Origin: Bacteroidota bacterium | GTDB lineage: Bacteria; Bacteroidota; JABWAT01 | Direction: 5' to 3' | Assembly (NCBI GenBank): GCA_023151185.1 | Contig: JAKLJL010000001.1 | Coordinates: 744,001-808,000, forward strand | Length of the DNA: 64,000 bases | In this document: one piece after another, positions 30,730 through 32,437 of the stretch | How the letters are laid out: each line of letters opens with the position of its first letter | Position numbering within the stretch: the stretch's first letter is position 1 | Program-made: the position numbers and the translations under genes | Notes under the pieces: generated by a model | The model's database searches: none | What the model was told of the DNA's origin: nothing | Seen by the model: only the letters and a program-made list of their open reading frames with translations

Positions 30730-31140
30730 ATGTCAATTGATCTGATTCTTGTCGTCATTCTCGCAGGGCTTATTCTCGCAAAATCGTTCGAACTGATTTA
30801 CATCCGGGTAATTGGCGGTCATGTTGAAAAAATAAACGTTGCCGAATTGAAAGAATATCTGAAAAATAAAAAACCCAACCGGGATTTTTTGCTGCTTGAT
30901 GTCAGAACAGAACCTGAATTGAAGATGGGCAAAATCGGTGGAAGTGTGAATATTGATTACCGGAAGTTCGATGCCAATGACGTTCTGATCAAAAATTTCA
31001 GGGAAAAGCCGATTGTGATTTATTGTGAAACCGGACCCAGAAGCCGGAAGATTGCAAACAAGCTGGCCAGAAGGGGATTCCCAAGAGTTTACTTTCTTGG
31101 CGGCGGTTATAAGGTTTGGCGCGGAGATGTTTCTATTTAA
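30730..31140 (+). CDS. Rhodanese-like domain protein, membrane-anchored
   Basis: N-terminal TM; FLLLDVRTEPE, IVIYCETGPRSRKIANKL (active Cys), GGGYKVW. Confidence 0.88.
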   Translation: MSIDLILVVILAGLILAKSFELIYIRVIGGHVEKINVAELKEYLKNKKPNRDFLLLDVRTEPELKMGKIGGSVNIDYRKFDANDVLIKNFREKPIVIYCETGPRSRKIANKLARRGFPRVYFLGGGYKVWRGDVSI

Positions 31141-31245: not shown

Positions 31246-31276
31246 TTGACACAGACTTTACAAGTTATTACCTTTG
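31246..31276 (+). promoter_or_regulatory. Bacteroidota-type promoter TTG-N20-TACCTTTG for the putative small RNA
   Basis: TTG at 31246-31248, 20 nt, TACCTTTG at 31269-31276. Confidence 0.7.
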
Positions 31277-31280
31277 TTGA

Positions 31281-31440
31281 GTCACTTTGAAATCAGGCCA
31301 GTCCGGGCGCCTGCTTGCTCCGGATGGCCTTTAGAAGTAAGGAATGGGGACTCCTTACTTCGCTCGAAGGGGTAGAGCATGGGGACGCTCTACTCCGCCT
31401 GTCAGGGGGAAGGTATGGGGACGCCTTCCCCTTTTTTTTT
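31281..31440 (+). ncRNA. Putative small RNA: 5' stem-loop plus three hairpins with identical ATGGGGAC loops, the last a terminator
   Basis: 5' stem AGGCCA-g-TCCGG/CCGGA-TGGCCT (31295-31330). Hairpin A AAGTAAGGA[ATGGGGAC]TCCTTACTT (31335-31360). Hairpin B GTAGAGC[ATGGGGAC]GCTCTAC (31372-31393). Hairpin C GGGGAAGGt[ATGGGGAC]gCCTTCCCC (31406-31431) followed by nine Ts. 5' end is inferred from the promoter. Confidence 0.75.
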
Positions 31441-31448
31441 GTCTCATT

Positions 31449-31479
31449 TTGTTTCATTAATAATCTCTTCCTATCTTCG
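31449..31479 (+). promoter_or_regulatory. Promoter-like TTG-N20-TATCTTCG for the PPIase gene
   Basis: TTG 31449-31451, 20 nt, TATCTTCG 31472-31479 (one mismatch to TAnnTTTG), 28 nt before the ATG at 31508. Confidence 0.5.
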
Positions 31480-31507: not shown

Positions 31508-32437
31508 ATGAAAAAATTTGGCATTGTCACGACAGGACTGCTGATGGCAGTTTTAGGGTGTTCAGATAAAGTTCAGGAAGGTGAAATCCTGCGGGTTGAC
31601 TCCATTCCTGTAAAAAAAATCAGAGTTGATGCTGCAGTTAATAACTACCTGGAGCAAATGGGTTCTCATAATGCTGATGATTCCATTAAAGTCAGAGAGC
31701 AAATCATTGAAGGCATGGTGAAAAATGCACTTCTTACCCTGAAAGCGAAAAAAGAAGGCTATACCTACGACTCGACCGAAGTTAACCGCTTTATCGCCAT
31801 GTACAAAGCTCAGATGGGCAGTGACTCTCTGATCAATAAAAAGCTGAAGGAAGCTGGTCTGACCATGGAAGACTGGAGAAATGATGTCCAGGATCAGAGC
31901 ATGATTGGCAAGTACCTTAAAGTTAAACTGGATTCTGTGATTAAAGCACCAGATTCAACTGCGGTGGATTCTGCCCGTAAAATGATGAAAAATTTCGAAG
32001 TTAAAGCCTCCCACATCCTGCTGAAAGTTCCAGCCGATGCTGCACAATCTGAAGTCGAAGCTGCTGCCAAGAAGATGGAAGGAATTCAGAAGGAAATTCA
32101 GTCAGCCGAAGGAAAAAACTTTGCCGCAATGGCCAAGAAATATTCACAGGATGGTTCTGCCCGTTACGGTGGTGACCTCGGTTATTTTAAAAGAGGAACC
32201 ATGGTACCCCAGTTCGAAGAAGTTGCTTTCGGAATGGCCCCCGGGCAGGTTTCCGGAATCGTCAGATCCCAGTTCGGGCTTCATCTGATAAAGGTTGAAG
32301 ACAGAAGAGAAATTGCAGTTCCCGAAGAAGCAGTACAGCGGGCAGCTCTGAATCTGACCAAATCAATTGCTTTCGATAAACTGATTGAAGAATTGAAAAA
32401 GGAATTCCCGATCGTCAAGCCGGAAGAATCCAAATAA
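31508..32437 (+). CDS. Parvulin-type peptidyl-prolyl isomerase lipoprotein
   Basis: Lipobox LMAVLGC; KASHILLKVP...DGSARYGGDLGYFKRGTMVPQFEEVAF...FGLHLIKVEDR. ORF-track start at 31379 lies inside a hairpin loop of the putative RNA; MKKFGIV at 31508 preferred. Confidence 0.9.
   Translation: MKKFGIVTTGLLMAVLGCSDKVQEGEILRVDSIPVKKIRVDAAVNNYLEQMGSHNADDSIKVREQIIEGMVKNALLTLKAKKEGYTYDSTEVNRFIAMYKAQMGSDSLINKKLKEAGLTMEDWRNDVQDQSMIGKYLKVKLDSVIKAPDSTAVDSARKMMKNFEVKASHILLKVPADAAQSEVEAAAKKMEGIQKEIQSAEGKNFAAMAKKYSQDGSARYGGDLGYFKRGTMVPQFEEVAFGMAPGQVSGIVRSQFGLHLIKVEDRREIAVPEEAVQRAALNLTKSIAFDKLIEELKKEFPIVKPEESK

Follow-up and report, generated by a model that had tools for sequence, protein, structure and literature searches.

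The window (the whole 64-kb stretch of DNA that was analysed) carries, on its + strand, a gene for a rhodanese-domain protein (30730..31140; PF00581, E 9e-18) and, downstream of it, a gene for a SurA-like peptidyl-prolyl isomerase (PPIase) with a lipoprotein-type signal (31508..32437; PF13616, PF00639). Between the two, on the same strand, lies an array of hairpins. Three hairpins with an identical 8-nt loop, ATGGGGAC, had been described there in the sequence-only reading; a pattern search of the window returned exactly three occurrences of this octamer, all of them here, starting at positions 31344, 31379 and 31415, and the predicted fold agreed with the description. The minimum-free-energy fold of 31281-31445 (-73 kcal/mol, z -3.3, with none of 200 shuffles as good) consisted of the bulged stem already noted at the 5' end (P0, 31295..31330), followed by three hairpins with stems of 10, 10 and 11 bp, G-U pairs counted. 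Hairpin 1 occupies 31334..31361 (10 bp, loop 31344-31351) and hairpin 2 occupies 31369..31396 (10 bp including one G-U, loop 31379-31386). Hairpin 3 (31404..31433, 11 bp, loop 31415-31422) is followed by a T9 tract (31432..31440) and doubles as the stem of a predicted intrinsic terminator. The recurrence of the loop is unusual for this DNA: the window has 45 hairpins that combine an 8-nt loop with a stem of 9 bp or more, and among these ATGGGGAC (three times) was the sole loop to recur, and in 30 first-order Markov randomised windows the commonest loop was never counted more than twice.

The source genome, G000 (a 3.7-Mb assembly), was compared with those of two other species of its genus (G001 and G002) and one species of another genus (G003), giving four species of two genera in one family, which represents the class as sampled and amounts in effect to two informative lineages. 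By DNA search, G001 and G002 both carry the element. A covariance model built from these three species (R1), the kind of search of related genomes that had been advised from the sequence, then matched G003 with 97 bits (E 2e-24), where both the paired stems and the loops were conserved; over 398 genomes of the phylum, the same model returned no credible homologue outside the family. In all four genomes the array sits between the rhodanese and PPIase genes and on the same strand as both, next to a PPIase that in G003 is only 38% identical to that of the window. Further arrays elsewhere in the genome had also been envisaged; a model of the single unit (R2) matched nothing besides the array locus at E < 0.2 in the four genomes, and a plasmid collection gave no match to the array. 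By these searches, the RNA is lineage-restricted.

Compensated stems and invariant loops

Pairing statistics were derived from a four-species alignment, A6, in which 99.2% of the pair cells held standard pairs and seven pairs showed changes on both sides, three of them in hairpin 1 (100% of cells paired) and four in hairpin 2 (97.5%). None of 500 shuffles of A6 reached the observed values, and sliding the pairing partners out of register lowered the paired cells to 48-61%, with at most one pair changed on both sides. RNAalifold independently gave the same three stems. In G003, an A-A beside the hairpin 2 loop was the sole unpaired cell. Among the 124 pair cells, non-canonical pairs were G-U in ten cases and A-C in none, indicating that the + strand RNA is under selection rather than the DNA or the other strand; judged by these pair counts, the + strand RNA is the molecule that folds. 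P0 was predicted in all four species as well, with its shape (stem, 1-2 nt 5' bulge, stem, loop) kept, its sequence hardly alignable and its fold significant in three of the four. The structured RNA of about 160 nt proposed from the sequence is accordingly borne out by the fold and by pairing across species.

The 12 loops of the four genomes read ATGGGGAC, GTGGGGAC or ACGGGGAC; all of them fit RYGGGGAC, and GGGGAC is invariant in 12 of 12. Between the window and G003, 0 of 18 GGGGAC sites differed, compared with 24 of 76 sites in stems and linkers (Fisher p = 0.005). Given the degree to which the neighbouring PPIase has diverged, these counts argue that the stems have drifted, with compensation, around loops that stayed fixed, as had been supposed. 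From the comparison of species, a conserved + strand structure and a constraint on the loop in its several copies can be taken as shown. The description of the stems as unrelated did not hold, for the cross-species alignment reveals them to be diverged copies of one unit, with the consensus GGGGTAAGGT[ATGGGGAC]NCCTTACTCC. The linker CCTGTCA follows hairpin 1 in G003 and hairpin 2 in the genus of the window. Local duplication of a unit of ~36 nt is the likely origin of such an array.

Transcription signals and the downstream PPIase gene

Upstream of P0, a Bacteroidota-type promoter motif, TTG-N20-TAnnTTTG, is predicted at 31246..31276 on the + strand (TTG at 31246-31248, a 20-nt spacer and TACCTTTG at 31269-31276), from which we infer a transcription start at about 31282-31285. 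Since this motif occurs in the window about as often as expected (5 sites, 4 expected), the evidence for a promoter lies in its conservation in place, the motif recurring at the same position and with an identical 20-nt spacing in 4/4 genomes. Hairpin 3, with a tract of T7-T9, forms an intrinsic terminator in all four as well. Conserved motifs frame the array on both sides, which supports a promoter and a terminator of its own, and the comparison shows them in place in every genome. Read in this way, the locus probably encodes an independently transcribed RNA of ~157 nt with its own Bacteroidota-type promoter and its own terminator.

Although no adjacent gene had been taken to explain the array, the proximity of the PPIase gene makes a serious rival of a cis-acting leader (attenuator), in which a protein or other ligand would read the loops and the terminator would set the amount of PPIase mRNA; we consider it possible, if on balance unlikely. 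In each of the four genomes the same PPIase gene follows the array directly and in the same orientation, although such synteny inside one family would also be expected of a trans-acting RNA. Hairpin 3 is at once a loop display and a terminator, as a leader of this kind would have it. What gives the leader its weight is G003: the distance from the T tract to the PPIase ATG is 24 nt there, no separate PPIase promoter is visible, and the intergenic gap holds only the RNA's own promoter-like site. In the genus of the window, by contrast, a weaker promoter-like site, TTG-N20-TATCTTCG (31449..31479, + strand), stands 3' of the terminator and before the PPIase gene, and G001 and G002 have TATTTTTG at the corresponding position. 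Nor was any conserved antiterminator pairing seen, the three stems of 10-11 bp being independent of one another both in the fold and in RNAalifold. Even as a cis leader, the array would represent a new class of repeated-loop regulatory RNA.

Possible protein capture and candidate partners

The reading that we favour, if tentatively, is that of a lineage-restricted non-coding RNA, likely independently transcribed, which would show its repeated loops to a protein in a sponge-like manner. Following a variable 5' hairpin, a hairpin unit of ~36 nt would have been duplicated and have diverged into three copies, the stems drifting by compensating changes and every loop keeping RYGGGGAC. Each loop would offer one copy of a putative binding site, and the RNA as a whole may serve as a multivalent platform capturing an RNA-binding protein, the first candidate being the single RRM-domain protein of these genomes. 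Capture would leave a smaller free pool of the partner, a CsrB-like logic applied to another protein, and the neighbouring PPIase gene may in addition receive some read-through. We infer that the array is transcribed, that a partner binds it and that this partner is a protein; titration of that protein by the array is plausible.

CsrB, CsrC and RsmZ are intergenic small RNAs with several hairpins, a G-rich GGA motif in the loops and an intrinsic terminator at the end. The array resembles them in its three hairpins with the same GGA-containing, G-rich loop in 4/4 genomes and in ending with a terminator; the likeness to an independent small RNA depends here on the promoter and terminator motifs. 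It differs from them in having three copies only, on long perfect stems, in matching no Rfam model, and in a loop, RYGGGGAC in 12 of 12, whose GGA is preceded by GG and which is not ANGGA. CsrA itself (PF02599) was detected in none of the four genomes, in which control profiles did match. The absence of this match and the form of the loops are both in line with the earlier expectation of a partner other than CsrA. Were the array a CsrB-like sponge whose mRNA targets share the site, a second set of genes with the same hairpin would be expected, and the failure to find one in the four genomes therefore counts against a sponge, with the qualification that single-stranded targets would escape that search.

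Exactly one RRM protein (PF00076) was found in each of the four genomes. This protein (in the source genome at G000:C21:143065-143274; L186, L201) has a glycine/arginine-rich tail and is encoded beside a glycosyltransferase gene. Bacteroidota RRM proteins bind small RNAs, and in Bacteroides they do so globally (PMC11697453); for one such protein, B. thetaiotaomicron RbpB, a preference for a GGA-containing GUAGGAUA probe is reported in PMC12119571. It is for these two reasons that the RRM protein comes first among candidate partners. According to PMC12119571, Bacteroides has none of Hfq, ProQ and CsrA, and proteins with RRM and other domains serve in their stead. In such a lineage, a repeated-loop RNA would point to a new RNA-binding regulator and its recognition sequence, and the loop and stems are defined sharply enough for direct binding tests.

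FopS and GibS, which occur in Bacteroides with RbpB (PMC11697453), share with the array the phylum, the promoter type and a short RNA with a terminator, and RbpB's domain family is represented by the RRM protein in all four array genomes, its binding here being putative. FopS forms a multicopy family whose members have a single-stranded 5' seed and a single terminator hairpin (PMC11697453), whereas the array is present in one copy per genome, has four hairpins and shows no obvious single-stranded seed. A covariance model of FopS/GibS is said to be deposited in Rfam, where the array matches nothing. Repeated hairpins with a conserved loop, lying upstream of a gene and by a terminator, are also seen in the guanidine-II riboswitch and in the dual hairpins bound by ANTAR proteins. 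Both of the latter have two hairpins, with an ACGR loop in the guanidine-II riboswitch and a hexaloop in the ANTAR-binding RNAs. The array, in contrast, has three hairpins on long, strong stems, has neither an ACGR nor an ANTAR loop, and precedes a PPIase gene. A check against Rfam had been recommended from the outset: in Rfam 15 no family reached its gathering score, nothing related appeared up to E = 10, the best sub-threshold matches were at chance level, and none of the cis-regulatory or riboswitch models matched. By these searches, the array would be a non-coding RNA new to Rfam.

In G130, G234 and G182, which belong to another family of the phylum, a model of the single unit also scored 35-36 bits on hairpins whose loop is GTGGGGAC; some 0.06-0.08 such matches are expected by chance for each over 398 genomes. 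They lie in small-RNA-like units (L030:1440-1960 in G130, L332:1440-1740 in G234 and L333:1465-1575 in G182) that begin with a 5' CATAAGTARGT box, continue into a terminator hairpin, AGAGRGY[GTGGGGAC], in which one pair is compensated, are present as tandems of two or three in G130 and G234 and singly in G182, and have no Rfam match. Because these units are otherwise unlike the RNA of the window, and in view of those chance expectations, a common partner for the two is only a suggestion. A wider scheme, in which the array would be, in a deep lineage of the Bacteroidota, a CsrB-like sponge for a global RNA-binding protein other than CsrA, for example the RRM protein, and the terminators bearing this loop in G130, G234 and G182 further ligands, seems doubtful to us. 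Terminators with a TGGGGAC loop were not enriched in the phylum.

Other readings of the repeated loops

The array might instead be a trans-acting antisense RNA whose G-rich loops pair with C-rich GUCCCCRY sites in mRNAs, which we regard as improbable. Multi-loop antisense RNAs are known to carry several identical accessible loops, and those of the array are identical, probably accessible and present in several copies; one gene start does lie within GTCCCCATG (L300; G000:C20, about 506990). The exact complement of the loop, GTCCCCAT, is nevertheless rarer than its reversed control (63 and 91 sites, respectively). When the stretches around the 8-mer sites were read, only 1 of 60 GTCCCCAT sites outside the array overlapped the start of a long sense frame, most being antisense to coding frames, so that the proposed action of the loop at translation starts found no enrichment behind it. 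A terminator whose loop reads GTCCCCAT closes a hemerythrin-like gene in G001 and G002 (L199, L200), at a distance of ~1.8 kb from the RRM gene. This was the only candidate for loop-loop kissing and was rejected, the same place in G000 being without it.

It is very improbable that the array is simply a strong terminator preceded by its own decayed copies, with the loop kept for structure as a GGGG tetraloop closed by U-A and R-C pairs. Hairpin 3 is indeed the terminator, units 1 and 2 resemble it, and hairpin 2 of G001 and G002 can close to a GGGG tetraloop. Loops with A opposite C and C opposite A (window, G003) cannot make the tetraloop stem, however, and still keep GGGGAC in 12 of 12, and the stems have stayed paired across deep divergence though free to decay. 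Hardly credible is a repetitive or mobile element of REP/BIME-like palindromes, or a palindrome array acting at the DNA level without RNA function: the units are near-copies of one sequence, and tandem hairpins with a GGGGAC hexaloop occur in unrelated bacteria (L037, L043, L053, L078), but in each of the four genomes the unit is confined to the array locus rather than dispersed like REP elements, the non-canonical pairs are G-U on one strand only, and a promoter and a terminator frame the array throughout. A small coding sequence is excluded because the frame shifts from unit to unit and from species to species: the loops are 35 and 36 nt apart, the frames into the PPIase gene read MGTLYS... 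in the window but MGTPYF... in G001 and G002, and two of the G003 loops carry GTG and ACG.

Scanning GTDB genomes and viral contigs for exact triple loops gave tandem repeats, a few of them with GGGGAC hexaloops and none like the RNA of the window. On Pirellulaceae, Cytophagia and Verrucomicrobia contigs (L043:3114, L078:6945, L053 and L037), these hexaloops sit on tandem perfect hairpins, an example of the unit being GAGCGATT[GGGGAC]AATCGCTC.
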